Positions 5,050-20,118 of a DNA stretch of 51,523 nt are shown piece after piece. Position 1 is the stretch's first letter, and every line of letters begins with the position of its first letter. Origin of the DNA: Candidatus Paraburkholderia calva (GTDB lineage Bacteria; Pseudomonadota; Gammaproteobacteria; Burkholderiales; Burkholderiaceae); assembly GCA_001184395.1 (NCBI GenBank), contig LFLF01000009.1, positions 1 to 51,523 of the forward strand. The letters run 5' to 3'. Made by a program: the position numbers and the translations under genes. The notes under the pieces were generated by a model. It made no database searches, was not told where the DNA came from, and saw nothing but the letters and a program-made list of their open reading frames with translations.

Positions 5050-8000
5050 ATGCCGAATGTTTCTCGACCCTCACGTCCCGATCAGGCGGACAAGTCCAAG
5101 TCTGCGGATAAATCCCTTGATGCTCAAGAGCAGTTGCGACAACTGCGTGAAAACCTGCGACGCGAATCGCGGGAAGGCAGCGGCGCGTCCGCCGAGCCCG
5201 AAGGTTTGGGCAAAAAGGAACTGGCCACGCGGCGGTTCGCGGGCGCGCAAGCTGGCGGTGCTAGGATGGTTGAGAAGCCCGCATCAAAACCTGCGTCAAA
5301 GCCGGCTTCGAATCCGGTTTCGAAGCCGGTGCCGGCGGCAAAACCCGTGCATCGTCCAGGTGCAGGAGCGCAGGCGGCCGAACACGTTCGTGGTGCGTCA
5401 CAGACAAGCGCGCAGACGGCGAAAGCAGCGCCCGCATCCGCACCGGATCGCCCGATGCAGCGCGCACCGAGTGCCGATACAACCGTGCCGTCGGGCCATC
5501 CGCCGCGCGAACGCAACAGCCAGCCACGTCCGGAAGCGCAGCGAGAGCGCGCACGTCCCAAACGTGAACCCGAACCGTCGACGCAGCGCCCGGACGGCCA
5601 ACGCGCGTCGCAAGGCCAACCGAAGCGCGCCGCTTCCACCCGCGCCGAACGCGTGCCTGCGCCAAAACAGCAGTACCAAGCACAACGCCCGGGCACGGCC
5701 GCGAACATCGGCATAACGCCACCGAAGCACGAAATGCGGCAGGAGCCGCGCGAGACTCGCCCGTCGCGTCCACCCCGCGCGCCACGCCTCGTCACCCCGA
5801 ACCCGATTCCGCCGATCACCTTCCCCGAAGCGCTGCCTGTGTCCGGCCGCCGTGAGGAAATCGCGCGTGAGATTCAGAACAATCAGGTGGTGATCGTCAG
5901 CGGTGAGACCGGCTCCGGCAAAACCACGCAGCTGTCGAAAATCTGCCTCGAACTCGGTCGCGGGCTCGGCGCGGGCGGCAGCGGCCTGATCGGCCACGCA
6001 GCCGCGCCGGCGCGGCATCAGCGACGGGCAAGCGGATCGCCGAAGAACTCGGCACGCCGTTCGGCGAAGTCGTCGGCTACAAGGTGCGTTTCACCGACAA
6101 CCTCGCGCCGGGTGCATCGGTCAAGCTGATGACGGACAGCATCCTGCTGGCTGAAACGACGTAGACCGATCCGCTGCTGTAAGCGTACGACACGATCATC
6201 ATCGACGAAGCGCACGAACGCAGCCTCAACATCGACTTCCTGCTCGGCTATCTGAAAGAAATCCCGCCGAAACGGCCCGACCTGAAGCTGATCGTCACGT
6301 CCGTGACCATCGATGCGGAACGCTTCGCGCACCATTTCGGCAGCGACGAGCGGCCCGCGCCGGTGATCGAAGTGAGCGGGCGGCTGTATCCGGTGGAAGT
6401 GCGCTATCGGCCGATCGAGGAAGAAAGCGTGGCAGTCAAGAACGCACAGGGAACCGCGCCGCAGCGCGACGATCGCAAAGCCGACCGCGATCTGATGGGA
6501 GCCATCGTCGATGCCGCCGACGAACTCTGCCGCGAAGGCCCCGGCGACGTGCTCGTGTTCCTGCGCGGCGAGCGCGAAATCCGCGATGCCGCAGAAGCCT
6601 TGCGCAAACATCATCCGCCGCATACGGAAATTCTGCCGCTGTTCGCGCCTCTCTCGGCGCAGGAATAGGAGCGCGTGTTCAAGCCGTCGAACGCGCGGCG
6701 CATCGTGCTGGCGACCAACGTCGCTGAAACCTCGCTGACGGCGCCGGGCATCCGCTATTTGGTCGATGCGGGCACCGCGCGCGTGAAGTGCTATTCGTAT
6801 CGCAACAAGGTCGAGCAGTTGCAGATCGAACCGGTGTCGCAAGTCGCCGCGAATCAGCGCGCCGGCCGCTGCGACCGCGTCGCCGACGGCATCTGCATCC
6901 GTCTCTACGACGAAGCCGATTTCCAGACGCGCCCGCGCTTCACCGATCCGGAAATCCTGCGCTCGTCGGGCGGTGGTCATCCTGCGCATGAAGTCACTGT
7001 ATCTGACGGCGATCGAAACCTTTCCGTTCATCGAGCCGCCGCCGGGCCGCACGACTGCGGACGGCTATCAACTGCTGAACGAACTCGGCGCCGTCGATGA
7101 CGACAACGCGCTCACGCCGCTCGGCCGCGAACTCGCGCGCCTGCCGCTCGATCGGCGCGTGGGCCGCATGATTCTCGCCGCGCGCGATCATCACGCGCTG
7201 AAGGAAGTGCTGATCATCGCCTCGGCCTTGTCGGTGCAGGATCCGCGCGACCGGCCGATCGAGGCGCAGTAGCAGGCGGATCAGGCGCATCGGCAATTCG
7301 TCGACGAGCGTTCCGAGTTTCTGCAATGGACGCGCATCTGGAAGTGGTTCGAGAAGCCGTCGCGCACAAGAAGTCGAATCGCCAGTTGACGGACGCGTGC
7401 CGCGCCAACTTCCTGTCGCACCTGCGTCTGAGCGAATGGCGCGATGTGCATTCACAATTGCTGACGGTCGTGCGCGAACACGAATGGCGCATCAACGAGT
7501 CCGATGCAACCTTCGAGCAGGTGCATCTGTCGCTGCTGACGAGCCTGCTCGGCAACGGCGGTCTCAAGGCCGACGACGAGCCGCTTGTATGTGCGCACCA
7601 TTACCAAGATAGAGCCGGAGTGGCTCGAAACGGTCGGCGCGTATCTGCTGAAGAAATCGATGTCGGACGCGCACTGGGAGAAGAAGGCCGTGCAGGTCGT
7701 CGCCTATGAGCGCCGCCACGCTGTACGGCCTGACGGTCTACGCACGCCGCCGCGTGAGTTTCGGCAAGCAAGACTCGAAATACCCGCGTTGTTCATCCGC
7801 GGCGCGCTGGTCGAGGGCGAATTCGACACGCGCCTGCCGTTCTTCGCGCACAACCGCAAGCTGGTCGCGGAAATCGAGCAACTGGAGCACAAGTCGCCGG
7901 CAAGACGTGCTGGTCGATGACGACCTCATCTACGGCTTCTACGATGCGCTGATTTCCGAAGGCATGTGGACGGGCGCGGTGTTCGAGCGCTAGTATCGCG

Positions 8001-9390
8001 ACGAGCAGAAGAGCAACGACAAACTGCTGTTCTTATCGGACGACCTGATGCGCCACGAAGCCGCCGGCGTCACGACCGACCTGTTCCCGAAGCGCATGAC
8101 GATGTCGGGCATCGAGATGTCGCTCGCGTACCACTTCGAACCAGGCGCGCCGCGCGATGGCATCACGTTGCAGGTGCCGCTCTACGGCCTGAATCAGATC
8201 GATGCGCGCCGCGTCGACTGGCTTGTGCCTGGCATGATCAAGGAAAAACGCAACTGCTGCTGAAATCGCTGCCGCAGAAGCTACGCCGTCACGTCGTGCC
8301 GCTGCCGGAGTTCGCAGCGGGTTTCGCCGAACGTCATGGGGGGCCGAAGTTCGGTGCGGGCGCGCTGGTCGATTCGCTTATCGCCGATATCCGCGAGCAG
8401 ACGCAGATCGCCGTGAATCGGCGGACAGGCGCAGCAGCAGTTCCAGAAGCTGACCGCGATCGCAGCTTTCGACGCGCTCTCCGGCGACGCCGACGCGCCT
8501 TCGCCCGCGCAACAGCCAACCGGCGAAGGCACCGCGCTATACGAAAACCTCACAACTTGGAATTTCGGCAAGCTGCCCGAGTTGCTCGAAATTCGCCATC
8601 GCGGACAGACGCTGTTCGGCTATCCGGCGCTGGTCGACCGGATCACGCATTGCGATGTCGAAGTCTTCGATGCGCCCGAGGAAGCGGCGCGCATCCATCG
8701 CGCGGGCTTGCGGCGGCTGTTCGCGTTGCAATTGCGCGAGCCGATCCGCTATCTGGAAAAGAATCTGCCGGGCCTGCGCGAAATGTCGATGCAGTTCCAT
8801 GGCGCTCGGCACGGCGGATGAGTTGCGCGATCAGATCGTCGAGACGGCGCTGGATCGCGCGTGTCTGCAAGACCTGCTGCCGGACGACGACGCCAGCTTC
8901 CACGCCCGACGCGATGCCGCGAAAGGGCGGCCTGACGCTGCTCGCGAACGAGATCGCGCGGCTGGTCGGCGCGATCCTCGCGGAATACGCCGCGCTCGCG
9001 AAAAAGCTCGCGCAGGCGAAGTCGTTCGCGCAGGCCTATGCGGACATGCAGGCGCAACTGAACGCGCTGATCGGCAAGCGCTTCGTGATCGATACGCCGT
9101 ATGCGCAACTGGCGCATTTCCCGCGCTATCTGAAGGGCATCGGCTTGCAGATCGACAAGCTCAAGGCCGATCCGTCGCGCGATGCGCGCCTCGCCGCCGA
9201 CATGCTGCTGCTCGCGCAGCACTATCAGCGCGCGACGACGCAGAGCGGCGGCGTCGCGGATGCGCGGCTCGCGGAATATCGCTGGCTGCTGGAGGAGTTG
9301 CGCGTGTCGCTGTACGCGCAGGAATTGCGCACGCCGATTCCGGTGTCCGTCAAGCGTCTCCACAAAGTCTGGGAATCGATGCAACGCTGA
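5050..9390 (+). pseudogene. hrpA: ATP-dependent RNA helicase HrpA, extensively degraded
   Basis: The gene spans the length of a roughly 1,400-residue HrpA. Recognisable are a low-complexity Lys/Pro/Ala N-terminus, the Walker A motif [10 protein letters not shown] (about 5900), DEAHERS (about 6200), the NVAETSLT and QRAGRCDR helicase motifs, and the DUF3418 C-terminus ending in VKRLHKVWESMQR. In-frame stops include TAG 6162, TAA 6180, TAG 6666, TAG 7270 and TAG 7991. There are frameshifts near 5985, 6965, 7700, 7900, 8240 and 8800. Two internal deletions, by comparison with the family, lie near 7590 (about 40 residues) and 8425 (about 45 residues). HrpA is a DEAH helicase acting on stalled ribosomes; here it cannot be made. 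Confidence 0.92.
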
Positions 9391-13393: not shown

Positions 13394-14149
13394 ATGCTGC
13401 AAGTGATCGCGACGACGGTCGCGGATGCGCGTGCCGCCGAGCGGGGCAGCGCGAACCAGCTGGAGCTGATCACGGCGATGGGCGAGGGCGGACTGACACT
13501 GAGCATCGGATTGATCGAAGCGGTGACCGAGGCGGTCGGCATTCCGGTGAACGTGATCGTGCGGCCGCACAGCCGGTTTTTCGTCTACGATGCCGACGAC
13601 TATGCGGTGATGCTGCGCGACGTCCGTGCAATAGCGAAGACGCGCGCGAATGCGATCGTGATCGGCATGTTGAACGCCGACGGCGACATCGACACCGGCG
13701 GCCTCGCCCGCGCGATCGACGCCGCCGATGGCAAGCCACTCACGTTCCATCGCGCATTCGACGAGGCGCGCGACTTGAGCGCGGCGTTCGATACGCTGTT
13801 GCGCTTCGACGCCGTGACCAATGTGCTGACGTCGGGCGGAAAGCCTTCGGTGCTGGAAGCCGAGGCGGTGATCGGGAAACTCGTCGAGCGCTCAGATGGC
13901 GCGCGCTGCACGGTGCTGGCGGGCGCGTGCCTCACGATCGATGCCATCGCGCAATTCGTCGTGGTGACCGGTGTGCGCGCGGTGCATTTCGGCTCGGCCT
14001 TGCGTATCGACGGTAAAGGGCTCGCGCCGGTCGACAAGGCGCGGGTCAGGCGTGCGCGAGCGGCTCACCCACGGCAAGTCACGAAAACACCATCCCGATA
14101 CCGTTTTCCGATGCCCTTGGGCGTCCTTATCCCCTTCGAATCCTTCTAG
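13394..14149 (+). CDS. cutC: CutC-family copper homeostasis protein with altered C-terminal tail
   Basis: MLQVIATTVADARAAERGSA begins a TIM-barrel protein of the CutC family (PF03932), with NVIVRPHSRFFVYD, FHRAFDEARD and VLTSGGKPSVLEA in the right order. The core is open to VRRARA (about 14061). After that, some 30 residues (HPRQVTKTPSRYRF and on) are antisense to the converging rhodanese gene, so the native stop and intergenic terminator seem to be deleted. The tail is off the barrel, so the protein may still fold. CutC has been linked to copper tolerance in enterobacteria, although its role is disputed. An in-frame ATG two codons upstream (13388) is possible. Confidence 0.72.
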   Translation: MLQVIATTVADARAAERGSANQLELITAMGEGGLTLSIGLIEAVTEAVGIPVNVIVRPHSRFFVYDADDYAVMLRDVRAIAKTRANAIVIGMLNADGDIDTGGLARAIDAADGKPLTFHRAFDEARDLSAAFDTLLRFDAVTNVLTSGGKPSVLEAEAVIGKLVERSDGARCTVLAGACLTIDAIAQFVVVTGVRAVHFGSALRIDGKGLAPVDKARVRRARAAHPRQVTKTPSRYRFPMPLGVLIPFESF

Positions 14150-14521
14150 CAGGTCATAAGCCTGTTCGAAGCCATCTTTCTGCGCGACCACTGCCGCGAG
14201 CTTCGAGCGCGCGGCGCTGCGGCACAGAAAAAGAACCGGCGTATCCGGGGTGGCAACTTGTCGTATTTGTTGGATAAACTCGTCGTTCGGCACGGAGCCG
14301 GGGTAGCGGATCCACTCGACATGCGCGTACTGCGCCTGGTCAATGGCAGGACGCCCCACCCAGTCCAGTTCCGCACGGGTGCGCACGTCGATCAGGCGCA
14401 CGCGCGGGTCGAGTTGCAGCAATTCGAAGGCTTCCGCGGGAGCAAATGCGCCCGCGTAGGTCAGAGAGTTCTGGGCGGCGCGGTCGGCGGCCTGCTTGTA
14501 GAGTTGTTCGAGCGAGCTCAT
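13892..14521 (-). CDS. Rhodanese-like sulfurtransferase domain protein with foreign tail
   Basis: MSSLEQLYKQAADRAAQNSL opens a single-domain rhodanese: LLQLDPRVRLIDVRTRAELDW, then the active-site loop FLCRSAARS with Cys, and AYDLLEGFEGDKDAQGHR. The family moves sulfane sulfur; the physiological acceptor is unknown. The normal C-terminus (KTVSGWC..LPWV) ends near 14065, and about 57 further residues are translated from the antisense of cutC. The reading frame therefore overlaps cutC by about 258 bases, tail to tail. The fold and active site are complete, so activity is possible, but the long tail may destabilise it. Confidence 0.72.
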   Translation of the reverse strand: MSSLEQLYKQAADRAAQNSLTYAGAFAPAEAFELLQLDPRVRLIDVRTRAELDWVGRPAIDQAQYAHVEWIRYPGSVPNDEFIQQIRQVATPDTPVLFLCRSAARSKLAAVVAQKDGFEQAYDLLEGFEGDKDAQGHRKTVSGWCFRDLPWVSRSRTPDPRLVDRREPFTVDTQGRAEMHRAHTGHHDELRDGIDREARARQHRAARAI

Positions 14522-14595
14522 GGCGCGGTAGTCTCCGTGAAAAGCGCAAGCGACTATTCTAGCTTGGCGGTTGCCGGAGACTTTCGGAAACAGGG

Positions 14596-14614
14596 TGCGT
14601 GCAATGTTGGTGCA
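14596..14614 (+). promoter_or_regulatory. Possible NtrC-binding site upstream of glnA
   Basis: TGCGTGCAATGTTGGTGCA resembles the NtrC dyad TGCACC-N5-GGTGCA: the right half is complete and the left half is degenerate. It lies about 200 bases upstream of the sigma-54 promoter, a usual enhancer distance. A second TGGTGC half-site is at 14784-14789. Confidence 0.45.
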
Positions 14615-14793
14615 TAGACAAGTTAATGCACGAAAACTATGCGTGTCTCGAGCGGACCAATGGGGCGCGCACCTATACACCTATAAATAGTACATTCCGA
14701 TCGGGCAGCGAATCGTCAGCCGTCTTGCAGCACGAAGTCGTTTCACTCAAAATGCGCGCTGCTTCAATTGCTTAGGCGCGATGTTGGTGCGCT

Positions 14794-14812
14794 TGGCACG
14801 GAAGATGCTTTT
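14794..14812 (+). promoter_or_regulatory. Sigma-54 promoter of glnA
   Basis: TGGCACGGAAGATGCTTTT matches the -24/-12 consensus TGGCACG-N4-TTGC, with GG at 14795-14796 and GC at 14807-14808, exactly 10 bases between them. Transcription would start near 14820, about 75 bases before the glnA ATG. Sigma-54 promoters need an activator, here classically NtrC, whose gene in this window is broken. Confidence 0.8.
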
Positions 14813-14893
14813 TGATCCTCGATTGGTGTAGGTGGTCGAATTGGTCGAGGTGGCAAAGCGATTCGCCGACTTTTGTTAATCAGGAGATAGGTA

Positions 14894-16309
14894 ATGAGTA
14901 AAACCGTGGCCGACGTCATGCAACTCGTCAAGGACAAGGACGTCAAGTTCGTCGATTTCCGTTTCACCGACACGCGCGGTAAAGAACAACACGTTTCCGT
15001 GCCGGTATCGGCATTCCATGAAGACAAATTTGAAAGCGGCCACGCTTTCGACGGTTCGTCCATTGCCGGCTGGAAGGGCATCGAAGCGTCGGACATGCTG
15101 CTGATCCCGGACCCGGACACCGCGTTCATCGACCCGTTCTATGAAGAGTCGACCGTCGTGCTGACCTGCGACGTGGTTGAGCCGGCCGACGGCAAGGGCT
15201 ACGAGCCCGACCCGCGTTCGCTCGCCAAGCGCGCGGAAGCCTATCTGAAGAGCTCGGGCCTGGGCGATACCGCCTACTTCGGTCCGGAGCCGGAATTCTT
15301 CATTTTCGATTCGGTGCAGTGGAAGACGGACCAGTCGGGCTGCTTCGTGAAGATCGGTTCGGAAGAAGCGCCGTGGTCGTCGGAGAAGGAATTCGAAGGC
15401 GGCAACACGGGTCACCGTCCGGGCACCAAGGGTGGTTACTTCCCGGTCGCGCCGGTCGACACGTTCCAGGACATGCGTTCGGAAATGTGTCTGCTGCTCG
15501 AACAGATCGGTATTCCGGTCGAAGTGCATCACCACGAAGTCGCGGGCCAGGGCCAGAACGAAATCGGCACCAAGTTCTCGACGCTGGTTCAGCGTGCGGA
15601 CTGGCTGCAGCAGACCAAATACATCGTCCATAACGTGGCGCACACGTACGGCAAGACGGCGACCTTCATGCCGAAGCCGGTCGTCGGCGACAACGGTTCG
15701 GGCATGCACGTCCACCAGTCGATCTGGAAGGACGGCACCAACCTGTTCGCAGGCAACGGCTATGCCGGTCTGTCGGAATTCGCGCTGTTCTACATCGGCG
15801 GCATCATCAAGCATGCGCGCGCGCTGAACGCGCTCACGAACCCGGGTACGAACTCGTACAAGCGTCTCGTGCCGCACTTCGAAGCGCCGGTGAAGCTGGC
15901 TTACTCGGCTCGCAACCGTTCGGCATCGATCCGTATTCCGCATGTGAGCAACCCGAAGGGCCGCCGTATCGAAACGCGCTTCCCGGATCCGCTCGCGAAT
16001 CCGTACCTGTGCTTCTCCGCGCTAATGATGGCGGGTTTGGACGGCGTGCAGAACAAGATTCATCCGGGCGAAGCCGCGGACAAGAATCTGTACGATCTGC
16101 CGCCGGAAGAAGACGCGAAGATCCCGACCGTGTGCGCGGGCCTCGATCAGGCACTCGACGCGCTGGACGGCGATCGCGAGTTCCTGACGCGCGGCGGCGT
16201 GTTCACGGACTCGATGATCGATGCGTACATCGAACTGAAGACGAACGAACTGCAGCGCTATCGCATGGCGGTGCATCCGGTCGAATTCGAGATGTACTAC
16301 TCGCTGTAA
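14894..16309 (+). CDS. glnA: Glutamine synthetase type I
   Basis: The intact 471-residue GSI-beta protein has the beta-grasp N-terminus ([16 protein letters not shown]) and the latch [10 protein letters not shown]. It also has the ATP/metal motifs ([43 protein letters not shown]) and the adenylylation site NLYDLPPEE with the target tyrosine at about residue 400. It makes glutamine from glutamate and ammonia in the cytoplasm. A clear ribosome site (AGGAGAT) precedes the ATG. It is driven by a sigma-54 promoter and followed by a strong terminator before ntrB. Retention of the Tyr site suggests GlnE control still matters even though NtrBC is damaged. Confidence 0.97.
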
Positions 16310-16379
16310 GCAGCAGACCACGCATGCACGTCGCGCGTCTCGTCGATGGAAGTCGGATCGGGCGCGCAATGTATGTGTC

Positions 16380-16421
16380 GCGATTAAAAAAGGGACGGCG
16401 CGCCGTCCCTTTTTTAATCGC
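16380..16421. terminator. 42-base perfect palindrome terminating glnA
   Basis: Bases 16380-16400 are the exact reverse complement of 16401-16421, with a GGGACGGCGC core and a six-A / six-T flank, so the hairpin carries a U tract in either direction. It lies 70 bases beyond the glnA stop and separates glnA from ntrB, as in many proteobacteria where readthrough feeds ntrBC. Confidence 0.88.
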
Positions 16422-16490
16422 CGTTTCGACGCCGTATGTGTCATGAATCAGGAAGAAGATCGGTTCGACGAACGACCTCACTGATTGCCG

Positions 16491-17634
16491 ATGGTGCTAA
16501 AGAATCTCATCAAAGCGCGCCATGGCCATGCCAATTCGCTTTCCGACGACACGCAACTCGCCAGGACCGGTTTGCTGCCGGGACTCGAAGCGCTGCCCAC
16601 GGTGGTGCTCGTCTTCAACATGCGCAACCTGAAGATCGCCTACGCGAATCCTTCGGCGGAGCAGATGCTGGAGATGTCGCGCAAGCAGTTGACGCAGATC
16701 AACTGGCCCGAACTTTTCGCCAATTCGGATGAACTGGCGACGACCATCGCATCGATCGCGGAGAACCGCTTCAATGCCACGCGGCTCGACGCCGGGCTCG
16801 AGCGGCCCGGACGGGAGCCTGTGCATGTGTATGCGATCGTCAGCTATCTGGAAGCGGCCGACCGAATACGTGCTGCTCGAACTCTTCGAGAACGAGCGTT
16901 ACCTGCGCTCCGATCGCGAGGAGCGTATTCACGATCTGACGGCGGTCAACAAGCAGTTGATCCGCAATCTCGCGCACGAAATCAAGAATCCGCTGGGCGG
17001 CATTCGCGGGGCGGCGCAGTTGCTCGAATTCGAACTCAACGCACGCGAACACGACGAATTGTGCGAATACACGCAGGTCATCATCAAGGAATCGGACCGG
17101 CTGCAGACGCTGGTCGATCGCTTGCTGGAACCGCACCGGCATCTGCATATCGTGGGCGACGTGAATATCTACGAAGTCTGCGAGCGGGTGCGCGCCGTGA
17201 TTCTCGCGGAGTTTCCGCGCGGCCTCACCATCGAGCGCGATTACGACGTCAGCGTGCCCGACCTGCGCGGCGACAAGGAGCAGTTGATCCAGGCGCTGCT
17301 CAACATCGTGCGCAACGCGGCCGAAGCGCTCAAGGAGCTTATCTGGCAAGGCGATGCGAAGATCGAACTGTGCACGCGGATCGCGCGTAAGGTGACGATC
17401 GGCAAGAAGCTGCACAAACTGGCATTGGACTTGCATATCACTGACAACGGTCCGGGGATTCCCAGTGAAATCCGCGACCGGATTTTCTTCCCGCTGGTGT
17501 CGGGGCGGGAAGACGGCAGCGGGCTGGGTCTCACGCTCGCGCAATCTTTCGTACATCAGCACTATGGATTGATCGAAGTGGAAAGCCGGCCGGGCTGCAC
17601 CGAGTTCGCGATTTTGCTGCCGTTTGGTGGCTAA
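16491..17634 (+). pseudogene. ntrB: Nitrogen sensor histidine kinase NtrB (GlnL), frameshifted
   Basis: MVLKNLIKARHGH begins a PAS-containing N-terminus (LPTVVLVFNMRNLKIAYANPSA). After a frameshift near 16858 the sequence continues TEYVLLELFENERYLR, LIRNLAHEIKNPLGGIRGA (phospho-acceptor His), NIVRNAAEAL (N box), DNGPGIP and GSGLGLTLAQSF (G boxes), ending at a TGA. The gap is explained if one copy of an 8-base tandem repeat (CGGCCGAC) was lost: AADRPTEYV would then read through. As is, translation stops before the kinase domains, so NtrC cannot be phosphorylated by this protein. Confidence 0.85.
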
Positions 17635-17812
17635 CGAAGAAGCTGACGAGGTAGCTGAAGGCGTCGTGACCGAGGACACGACGCCGCCGGGCTGACGGCA
17701 AACCTTCACAGGCCGCAATGGACCGACATTCCGAGCAGTGCGCAATATGCCTTGACGTCTGACCGTTTCGACGGGTTCACACCGATCACACGAAGACATC
17801 TCGCCGAACGAT

Positions 17813-19310
17813 ATGAAGCCGATCTGGATAGTAGACGACGACCAATCCATCCGATGGGTGCTCGAAAAGGCTCTCGCACGAGAGAACTTCAGCACACGCA
17901 GTTTTTCCGGCGTCCGCGATGCGCTCGCCGCGCTCGAGCAGGAAAGCCCGCAAGTGCTGGTGTCGGACATCCGCATGCCGGGCGGGTCCGGGCTCGAATT
18001 GCTGCAAACCGTACGCGACCGCTTGCCCGGGCTGTCCGTCATCATCATGACAGCGTTCTCGGATCTCGATAGCGCGGTGGCCGCGTTTCAGGGCGGCGCA
18101 TTCGAATATTTCGCCAAGCCGTTCGATGTCGATAAAGCCGTCGAACTGATCTGCCGCGCCGTCGACGAAAGCATGCGCGGGGAAGCGGCCTACGACGAAC
18201 GCGTCACCGAAACGCCGGAGATGCTCGGTCAGGCGCCTGCGATGCAGGACATGTTTCGCAGCATCGGCCGCCTGTCGCATTCGGCGGCGACCGTGCTCAT
18301 CACGGGCGAATCAGGCACCGGAAAGGAGCTTGTCGTACGCGCCTTGCACCGACATAGCCCACGCGCAAACGGACCGTTCATCGCGCTGAACACGGCGGCG
18401 ATTCCGAAAGACCTGTTGGAATCCGAACTATTCGGACATGAGCGCGGGGCGTTCACGGGCGCGCAGTCGATGCGTCAGGGCCGCTTCGAGCAGGCCGAGA
18501 ACGGCACGCTGTTCCTCGATGAAATCGGCGACATGCCGTTCGACTTGCAGACGTGCCTGCTGCGCGTGCTGTCGGATGGGCAGTTCTATCGCGTCGGCGG
18601 TCACAATCCGCTAAAGGTGAACGTGCGCGTGATCGCGGCGACGCATCAGAATCTGGAGTCGCGCGTGCGGCAGGGCTTGTTCCGCGAGGACTTGTATCAC
18701 CGGCCTGAATCTAATTCGCCTGCGCTTGCCGGCCTTGCGCAAACGTAGCGAGGATATTCCGCTGCTGGCGCGGCACTTCCTGCAAAAGAGCGCGCGCGAT
18801 CTCGGCGTGGAGCCGAAGCGCGTGTCCGACGAGGCGCTCGCTTATCTCGCGTCGTTGCCATTTCCCGGCAACGTGCGGCAACTCGAAAACCTCTGCAACT
18901 GGCTGACCGTGATGGCGCCTGCGCAAGTGATCGAGCAGAAGGACCTGCCGCCCGATCTCACCCCGCGTCAGGACCATATGGCCGAGAGTCTGGCCGTATC
19001 GACCGGTGGCGCGGTGGTAGCCACACCCGCGTTGCAGAATGGTGCGGCGGTTGCATCGGCGTCTTTGGCTGGCGCGCCCGCGGGCTTGCCGGCAAGCGTG
19101 TGGGAGAACGGTTTGTGCACGGAAGTCGCGCGTTTGCTGCGCGAGAACTCCGCCGACGTGATGGATGAACTCGCACGCCGTTTCGAGGCCGCGGTGATTC
19201 GCGAAGCGCTCGATTTCACCCGAGGCCGCAAGGTGGAGGCAGTGGAGCGGCTGGGCATCGGGCGCAATACGATCACGCGCAAGATTCAGGAACTGCATCT
19301 CGACACGTGA
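17813..19310 (+). pseudogene. ntrC: Nitrogen regulator NtrC (GlnG), one-base insertion, loses DNA-binding domain
   Basis: The receiver is intact (DDD at residues 8-10, Asp52 in VLVSDIRMPG). The AAA+ domain has GESGTGKE (Walker A), the sigma-54 contact loop GAFTGA and [10 protein letters not shown]. At about 18704, after EDLYHR, one extra C shifts the frame and translation ends at residue 311. Removing it gives LNLIRLRLPALRKRSEDIPLLARHF and the complete C-terminal part, with FPGNVRQLENL and the Fis-type HTH VEAVERLGIGRNTITRKIQELHL. The truncated product has no DNA-binding domain and only part of the ATPase. A single-base error is the one alternative, but the partner ntrB is also broken. Confidence 0.85.
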
Positions 19311-19329
19311 GCGTCTCGCGGGGTGGGGA

Positions 19330-20118
19330 TCAGCCGAGATCGAGCGTCGCGATGACCGGCGTGTGATCGGACGGCTGATCCCATTTGCGCGGCGTCTTAT
19401 CCACTTCGCACTTGCTACACTGCGCCGTGAGTTCCGCCGACAGCAGAATGTGATCGATGCGCAGGCCCGCATTGTGGCGGAACGCCATCATTCGATAATC
19501 CCACCACGTAAAGAGTTTTTCCGGCTGCTCGAACTTGCGGAAAGCGTCGGTCAGGCCGAGCGCTTCGAGTTGCTGGAAATGCGCGCGCTCTTCGGGCGAC
19601 ACCAGATTCTGTCCTTTCCAGGCCTTGGGGTCGTGCACGTCGCGATCTTCTGGCGCGATGTTGTAATCGCCCAGTAGCGCGAGCTTAGGGTGACGCGTCA
19701 TGTCCTCGAGCAGCCATTCGCGCAGCGCATCCAGCCAGCGCATTTTGTATTCGAACTTCTCGGTGCCGGGAGCCTGCCCGTTCGGGAAATAGGCCGAGAC
19801 GATACGCACGCCGTCGATCGTCGCGGCGATCACGCGCTGCTGCAAGTCCTCGAAGCCCGGGATGTTGCGCACGACGCTGATCTCATCCACTTCGTAATCG
19901 GCGGCAGTGCGCACGAGGATGCCGACGCCGTTGTACGTCTTCTGGCCCGCGAACCAGCTTTTATAGCCGGCGGCTTCGAGTTCGGAGTGCGGGAATTTTT
20001 CGTCAGGCATTTTCAGCTCTTGCAGGCAGAGGACGTCGACCTGCGATTGCGTGAGCCAATCGATGACGTGCTGCTGACGGACTTTGAGAGAGTTGACGTT
20101 CCAGGTGGCGATTTTCAT
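19330..20118 (-). CDS. xth: Exodeoxyribonuclease III
   Basis: The intact 262-residue protein has the exonuclease III/APE fold signatures MKIATWNVNSLKVR, LCLQELKMPDE (metal-binding Glu), VSAYFPNGQAPG, LLGDYNIAPEDRD, and the terminal RIDHILLS and SDHTPV (catalytic His). It cleaves DNA 5' of abasic sites and removes 3' blocks in base-excision repair. I chose the ATG at 20118 because homology starts there; an upstream extension to 20316 lacks family similarity. It converges with ntrC, 19 bases from the ntrC stop. Confidence 0.95.
   Translation of the reverse strand: MKIATWNVNSLKVRQQHVIDWLTQSQVDVLCLQELKMPDEKFPHSELEAAGYKSWFAGQKTYNGVGILVRTAADYEVDEISVVRNIPGFEDLQQRVIAATIDGVRIVSAYFPNGQAPGTEKFEYKMRWLDALREWLLEDMTRHPKLALLGDYNIAPEDRDVHDPKAWKGQNLVSPEERAHFQQLEALGLTDAFRKFEQPEKLFTWWDYRMMAFRHNAGLRIDHILLSAELTAQCSKCEVDKTPRKWDQPSDHTPVIATLDLG

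Follow-up and report, generated by a model that had tools for sequence, protein, structure and literature searches.

Frame-broken ntrB and ntrC beside an intact glnA in an eroding Caballeronia-type genome, and the recurrence of their breakage within the genus

The glnA-ntrB-ntrC locus

The DNA analysed here, referred to as the window, is the whole of contig C291 (51,523 bases) of G000, a Caballeronia-type genome available as a draft of 4,198,526 bases in 301 contigs with 99% completeness. It carries glnA, the gene for glutamine synthetase, followed by the genes for the regulators NtrB and NtrC, and at this locus glnA is intact, whilst ntrB and ntrC are each broken by a change of reading frame. 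The locus was compared across 58 congeneric genomes, G000 being one of them; from its sequence the genus would be Caballeronia, and C. temeraria is among the best named relatives of the G000 glnA (95%). The parts of the three genes are listed below, with residue numbers of the NtrB and NtrC pieces following the G001 reference and domains assigned by Pfam.

14894..16309, forward strand: glnA, glutamine synthetase, intact; 471 aa, both Gln-synt domains, NLYDLP motif
16491..16859, forward strand: ntrB piece 1, the PAS part; reference residues 1-123
16861..17634, forward strand: ntrB piece 2, HisKA and HATPase_c in another frame; residues 124-379 at 16861-17628
17813..18703, forward strand: ntrC piece 1, receiver and most of the AAA+ module; residues 1-297, the frame stopping at 18748
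18705..19310, forward strand: ntrC piece 2, AAA+ lid and HTH_8 in another frame; residues 298-497 at 18705-19304

Much of this had been claimed in an original prediction made from the letters of the sequence, and the coding part of that prediction stands. The glnA gene is a single open frame with a tyrosine at residue 400, within the NLYDLP motif, which we take to be the adenylylation site. Each regulatory gene contains one frame change, near 16860 in ntrB and near 18704 in ntrC, and neither break sits in a single-base run longer than two. As predicted, translation in the first ntrC frame would stop at residue 311, without the DNA-binding helices, which lie with the lid in the second frame; residues 1-297 alone align to NtrC. 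By its place in the glnA-ntrB-ntrC order the gene is ntrC, but receiver, AAA+ with lid and helix-turn-helix (HTH) are not found in one reading frame in G000, and against the TIGR01818 (NR(I)) model its two pieces score 485.8 and 138.5 bits, below the whole-protein cut-off of 558.6 bits, compared with 672 for the intact G001 relative. Both genes are open without stops in all 24 of the congeners G001-G024, so that in G000 the frames of both are interrupted relative to close relatives, one mark of a pseudogene. At positions that do not otherwise vary among the relatives compared, amino-acid changes are more numerous in G000 than in any other genome for each of the ntrB and ntrC pieces (3, 6, 8 and 4, the next highest genomes having 2, 3, 4 and 1), compared with five such changes in glnA, where the highest genome has six.

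The region upstream of glnA

Since the divergent gene that precedes glnA is intact, glnA must be transcribed from within the 372-bp gap, which contains the following features in G000.

14066..14521, reverse strand: divergent gene with a rhodanese-like domain, intact, bounding the gap
14598..14614, forward strand: operator 1 remnant, 8/12, left half degraded; placed by alignment
14627..14643, forward strand: operator 2 remnant, 8/12; right half ATGC, where G042 and G015 have GTGC
14668..14694, forward strand: operator 3, split by a 10-bp insertion, with CACCTATA twice in tandem; right half GTGC changed to GTAC
14762..14774, forward strand: IHF-like site, TCAA-N4-TTA, between the operators and the promoter
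14794..14809, forward strand: sigma-54 -24/-12 element, TGGCACGGAAGATGCT; GG at 14795-14796 and GC at 14807-14808, both intact

Counts of operators and promoters refer to 55 of the 58 genomes, those left out being G002 and G016, whose contigs lack the DNA upstream of glnA, and G055, whose contig lacks glnA. The textbook -24/-12 element that had been predicted (GG at 14795, GC at 14807) is borne out by its GG-N10-GC form, its TGGCACG-like context and its conserved place, the GG...GC core being found at the same place upstream of glnA in 54 of the 55 genomes, G000 included. The A at -15 is unique to G000 in this set. The IHF-like motif, TCAA-N4-TTR, occurs between operators and promoter in 50 of the 55 genomes, again including G000, and in neither of two Paraburkholderia; the label rests on what we take to be the consensus of integration host factor (IHF).

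The NtrC operators have fared differently. NtrC-like sites of 17 bp were scored by the number of matches to the 12 defined positions of TGCACC-N5-GGTGCA, presumably the NtrC consensus, with the chance level set by 200 shuffles. Relatives of G000 have three such operators, their starts 29 and 41 bases apart and typically about 285, 256 and 215 bases before the glnA start, and most own a site scoring 10-12; the sister genome G042 scores 9, 9 and 10, and G015 scores 9, 9 and 9. The corresponding places in G000 score 8, 8 and 5. The best match anywhere upstream of its glnA is 8/12, against a mean best of 7.9 in the shuffles (maximum 10), and an NtrC enhancer, in the sense of at least two phased 17-bp TGCAC-N-GTGCA operators above chance, is not present there. 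The NtrC-like site that had been predicted upstream is therefore not borne out, its place being taken by three operator remnants, and the statement that glnA keeps a sigma-54 promoter was too strong: the -24/-12 core and the IHF-like site persist, but the NtrC operators are damaged. When all three sites are scored at fixed spacing, G071 (19) and G000 (21) have the two lowest arrays of the 55 genomes, and in both of them ntrB and ntrC are broken; by post hoc arithmetic, the chance that two of the three broken genomes in this set would take both lowest ranks is 3 in 1,485. Low first-site scores at fixed spacing were also obtained for G004, G011 and G051, of which G004 and G011 have a good first site at another spacing.

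The sole genome without the core, G050 (L223), has its -24 GG changed to AG and a different spacer, with ntrB and ntrC open and good operators (11, 10 and 9). It mirrors G000, in which the activators were lost first.

Recurrent breakage across the genus

Full-length ntrC in one frame without stops was found in 53 of the 58 genomes, and ntrB in 54. Both genes are broken in four (G000, G055, G066 and G071), by frame changes in both genes in G000 and G071 and by a frame change in ntrB together with stops in ntrC in G055 and G066, and the positions of the breaks differ among the four. In a tree built from glnA, ntrB and ntrC, intact relatives stand beside the broken ones, G042 with G000 (support 1.0), G046 with G071 (0.99) and G014 with G055 (0.998), and G066 branches outside the clade of G015, G042 and G000 (0.989). 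A tree from glnA alone, with 57 sequences and without G055, recovered the same four groupings. Because an intact relative accompanies each broken genome and the breaks themselves differ, at least four separate losses are needed. These losses coincide with genome reduction: the set divides into nine genomes of 4.2 Mb or less (one of which, G003, is just 60% complete) and 49 of 5.1 Mb or more, and ntrB and ntrC are broken in four of the nine and in none of the 49 (Fisher p = 0.0003).

Two genomes of this set deserve further description. In G065 (L218), ntrB is open and ntrC lacks, in frame, reference residues 107-128 (the end of the receiver) and 410-423; this ntrC has a low ratio of nonsynonymous to synonymous substitution (dN/dS) relative to its relatives and may be a working variant. 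The operator array upstream of glnA is normal in G065 (score 29). G066 (L217) has four to five stops in ntrC, a frame change in ntrB and a split glnD, and keeps both the glnA operators and the -24/-12 core. If selection still acts on the promoter, this is the genome in which it would best be sought.

Remaining nitrogen control and other activators

At the level of the enzyme, control runs through GlnB, uridylylation by GlnD and adenylylation of the glutamine synthetase tyrosine by GlnE. In G000, glnB, glnD and glnE are open, as are two rpoN genes; glnK is split in two frames and the adjoining amtB is open. Elsewhere in the set, the glnD domain is spread over two stretches in G066 and the main glnE match is partial in G055, which suggests that the enzyme-level arm can be lost later. 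The split glnK (L180, G000:C100, about 5.6-6.2 kb) has upstream a 17-base tandem-repeat insertion that is absent from the four relatives compared. In the glnK-amtB upstream region, compared in five genomes, the -24/-12 element persists in G000 and two NtrC-like sites are one spacing base short.

The sigma-54 activator domain gives 14 matches in G000. Beyond NtrC there are three strong, whole activators with HTH in frame, two on C236, which lie 5-8 kb from the second rpoN and both have a GSFTGA loop, and one on C1, which has no such loop. The second NtrC-like activator that the original prediction had thought worth seeking was not found: the three whole candidates, to which scoring was applied as distinct from weak AAA matches of about 30 bits or less (C246, C130 and C112), reach 380.1, 304.0 and 292.5 bits, against the NtrC cut-off of 558.6. 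Two other candidates were set aside. The C1 activator was rejected as an NtrX substitute, as it has no GAFTGA-type loop and its 258 bits fall short of the NtrX cut-off of 600, and the C100 activator near glnK was not taken for a nitrogen regulator, as its neighbours suggest a kinase and activator pair that we presume, from context, to be DctBD. In G012 this DctBD-like pair (L180, G000:C100, about 10.0-12.9 kb) adjoins a transporter-type gene. Both G000 and G018 have a broken pair, and G015, too, has a frame change in the kinase.

Genome erosion and host association

The G000 genome is eroding, with many broken genes, and in this it resembles leaf-nodule Caballeronia, as judged on the window. 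An automatic survey, which used a codon-position filter against frames antisense to real genes, scored as broken 10 of the 26 window genes found by comparison with G012, two of these ten being also falsely broken in the G021 control (one through an over-long ntrB start), and 13 of the 27 found by comparison with G021. One of the ten, ntrB, is independently broken by frame. On the rpoBC contig of G000 the same survey found none of 12 genes broken (10 intact, two cut by the contig end), and the background, G021 against G012, was two of 36. The survey is a rough one, with no window match for 16 of the 42 G012 reference genes and none for 40 of the 52 on the rpoBC contig.

A gene of the DHQ-synthase family in G000 (L215 407-1612, G000:C20; 401 aa) is cyclitol-synthase-like and falls below all NCBIfam cut-offs. 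It occurs at 87% identity or more in five of the 58 genomes (G000, G003, G015, G018 and G050), with a 39% homologue in G071 and no close homologue in G055, G065 and G066. Leaf-nodule symbionts make cyclitols by means of EEVS, a DHQ-synthase homologue, according to PMC8599487, and by its family likeness to EEVS the gene may be read as the mark of a leaf symbiont. From the eroding genome and the cyclitol-synthase-like gene, the lineage is very probably host-bound, which supports the host-fed life that had been suggested for it, and the bacterium probably lives inside plant leaves. According to PMC8362603, amino acids are generally more abundant in Psychotria and Ardisia leaf nodules than in the lamina, and polyamines are raised. 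Nodules rich in amino acids would fit weak selection for control in response to nitrogen scarcity.

Origin and consequences of the broken switch

We regard it as likely that the NtrB-NtrC switch of G000 has recently been pseudogenised in the course of general erosion, as has occurred independently in at least three other reduced lineages, and that glnA has been kept, with the -24/-12 core as a relic and with low, NtrC-independent expression. Ongoing symbiotic erosion would be removing the transcriptional arm, with NtrB, NtrC, the three operators and GlnK gone or going, whilst glnA would be retained because glutamine synthetase is still needed, and enzyme-level control by GlnB, GlnD and GlnE, all open-framed, would stay in place. 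The surviving core would most simply be a young relic, persisting mainly from too little time to decay: the synonymous divergence (dS) between G000 and G042 is 0.11-0.17, too short for reliable decay of a 16-bp element, so the break is recent and survival of the core needs no selection. Expression of glnA would then be low and largely independent of NtrC, and could suffice in surroundings rich in ammonium or amino acids. Low expression of this kind is favoured by the lack of any insertion element in the 372-bp gap and of a clear sigma-70 promoter. PMC5491218 describes an ntrC mutant of Burkholderia cenocepacia that grows on 15 mM ammonium at a rate like that of the wild type, does not use nitrate or urea and, under nitrogen limitation, has glnA mRNA reduced by log2 4.8. 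The growth of this mutant implies that residual glnA expression suffices with ammonium, and that the loss of NtrC is tolerable without rewiring if ammonium is plentiful. The original prediction had offered a choice between another activator and locked nitrogen control; it was right that both activator genes are broken, but it omitted this simpler case of tolerated loss, for which the growth data of PMC5491218 provide the precedent.

Several observations weigh against this account. The array of G066, a genome with broken ntrB and ntrC, is normal (10, 9 and 9; score 28) even though its ntrC, with its four to five stops, has looked dead for longer, and judged from this genome operator decay is not an invariable sequel of ntrC loss. 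At glnK, one NtrC-like site (9/12) is kept in G000, and a shortened site is likewise present in G018, where ntrB and ntrC are open. Neither pair scoring, compared with shuffles, nor a consensus scan found a sigma-70-like promoter upstream of glnA in G000. The substitutions are also equivocal. Amino-acid changes divide 37:18 between the G000 and G015 sides in the ntrB and ntrC pieces, compared with 16:9 in rpoN and 46:27 in glnE (glnD was left out of this comparison), so that open genes of G000 also run fast; nonsynonymous to synonymous codon changes in ntrB and ntrC number 18/39 on the G000 branch and 8/34 on the G042 branch, a weak excess. These counts fall short of proof of relaxed selection, and so of pseudogene status by that route. 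The weak excess would fit a very recent break and would equally fit an error in one gene, and one of the two indels could be an assembly error.

Among the alternatives, an exchange of activators is improbable. In this scenario an enhancer-binding protein other than NtrC, for example either member of the C236 pair, would fire the glnA sigma-54 promoter from solution or from weak sites. The GG/GC core, retained in each of the four NtrC-damaged genomes whose upstream DNA can be read (G000, G065, G066 and G071), speaks for it, as do the retained IHF-like site, the two open RpoN genes, the two whole C236 activators with GSFTGA loops and the operators that G066 has kept despite its long-broken ntrC. 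However, the C236 activators, at 380 and 304 bits, do not reach the NtrC equivalog cut-off, the glnA operators of G000 are damaged, and on so short a branch the core would be expected to survive even unselected; nearly all genomes with open ntrB and ntrC have the core as well, and hence it does not discriminate. There is an equally slim chance that, after the loss of NtrB and NtrC, these symbionts have handed glnA, still under sigma-54, to a different enhancer-binding protein, for instance the C236 pair, so that glutamine synthetase responds to a signal from the host or the symbiosis rather than to nitrogen status. Such a hand-over, if true, would explain both the core in the four readable genomes and the operators of G066.

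We place no higher a likelihood on a new or hidden sigma-70 promoter as the driver of glnA. The tandem TATA-rich insertion at 14670-14685 yields TATACACCTATAAATA, which could serve as a -10 element, and E. coli glnA can reportedly gain new promoters that bypass sigma-54, a finding attributed to work by Reitzer in 1987. Against this, no pair upstream of glnA in G000 rises above the shuffle median, the consensus scan returned none, and the best sigma-70-like pair (14812) is shared with G015 and G042, both with open ntrB and ntrC, and hence is no new gain. A precedent in its favour comes from Caulobacter, where, according to PMC10274813, mutants without ntrC do not grow on ammonium unless IS3 has inserted at the glnBA promoter and restored transcription. 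This deletion illustrates the effect of NtrC loss on glnA and its rescue by a new promoter; by contrast, the gap in G000 has no insertion element, and the Caulobacter NtrC itself has no GAFTGA loop.

Slightly less credence still attaches to errors of sequencing or assembly, with NtrB and NtrC intact in the living organism. A single frame change per gene in otherwise near-normal coding sequence, the weak nonsynonymous excess and a draft in 301 contigs would all be consistent with such errors. Nevertheless, sequencing noise is an unlikely source of the frame breaks: the two indels fall in neighbouring genes and outside any single-base run longer than two; glnK is split too, and activator-domain matches on C253, C251 and C246 lie in adjacent partial stretches; none of the 12 genes found on the rpoBC contig is frame-broken; all three NtrC operators carry damage, from substitutions and from a 10-bp insertion; and the same loss has arisen by other lesions in three other reduced genomes. 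Very improbable, finally, is that the broken halves remain useful as separate working proteins: a 301-aa open frame with an ATG at 16729 does start upstream of the ntrB break, and the part from 16864 holds both kinase domains, but the cut in ntrC lies within the AAA+ module, ahead of the lid, the second half of the gene has a TTG start in its longest listed frame, the operators are damaged, and in the other broken lineages the cuts fall at different places or stops are present.

Relation to known systems

The locus is closest to the glnA-ntrB-ntrC operon of B. cenocepacia H111, with its NtrC-activated sigma-54 promoter (PMC5491218), in gene order, protein families and the -24/-12 element, and the relatives of G000 have NtrC-like operators upstream; G000 differs in its frame-broken ntrB and ntrC and its damaged operators. 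A regulator of nitrogen genes has also been lost under host restriction in the rice weevil symbiont SOPE, where rpoN is pseudogenised and much metabolism is kept, according to PMC3914690. Unlike SOPE, G000 keeps the sigma factor twice, and it is the activator pair that has been lost, repeatedly within one genus. The symbiont Erwinia dacicola is reported (PMC6205999) to keep ntrC. Leaf-nodule Caballeronia (published as Candidatus Burkholderia), as portrayed in PMC8599487 and PMC8362603, resemble G000 in reduced genome, many broken genes and a cyclitol-synthase-like gene. Full-text literature searches, which did not cover key papers of subscription journals, turned up no account of leaf symbionts that have lost NtrBC.

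Loss of regulators in a shrinking symbiont genome is already known, and the notable part here is its recurrence within one genus. At least four collapses of ntrB and ntrC, all in reduced genomes, provide a natural series in which to follow the order of circuit decay, possibly the activator pair, then the operators and GlnK, then GlnD or GlnE. The series also asks what keeps an essential target gene expressed once its activator is gone, and the loss bears on the nitrogen that plants supply to leaf symbionts.

The glnA leader and neighbouring genes

The remaining features of the region are the following.

14851..14868, forward strand: leader hairpin of glnA, just before the ribosome-binding site; present in relatives, weakened in G000
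19345..20118, reverse strand: neighbouring gene with an Exo_endo_phos domain (exonuclease III-like), intact

Folded over about 50 bases, the leader hairpin reaches -11.7 kcal/mol in G000, whereas G015 and G021 reach -15.3 kcal/mol, all with weak z-scores (-0.9 in G000, -1.7 in the other two), and the letters of the hairpin are altered in some relatives. In 14100-19400, the hairpin included, no Rfam family reached its gathering score. Elsewhere in the window, a large HrpA-like helicase gene (with DUF3418 in its G012 relative) at 5310-9387 is spread over many frames with about nine stops, and between 21068 and 28064 further broken genes (relatives of amidohydrolase, DUF2950 and DUF3300) lie beside intact ones.

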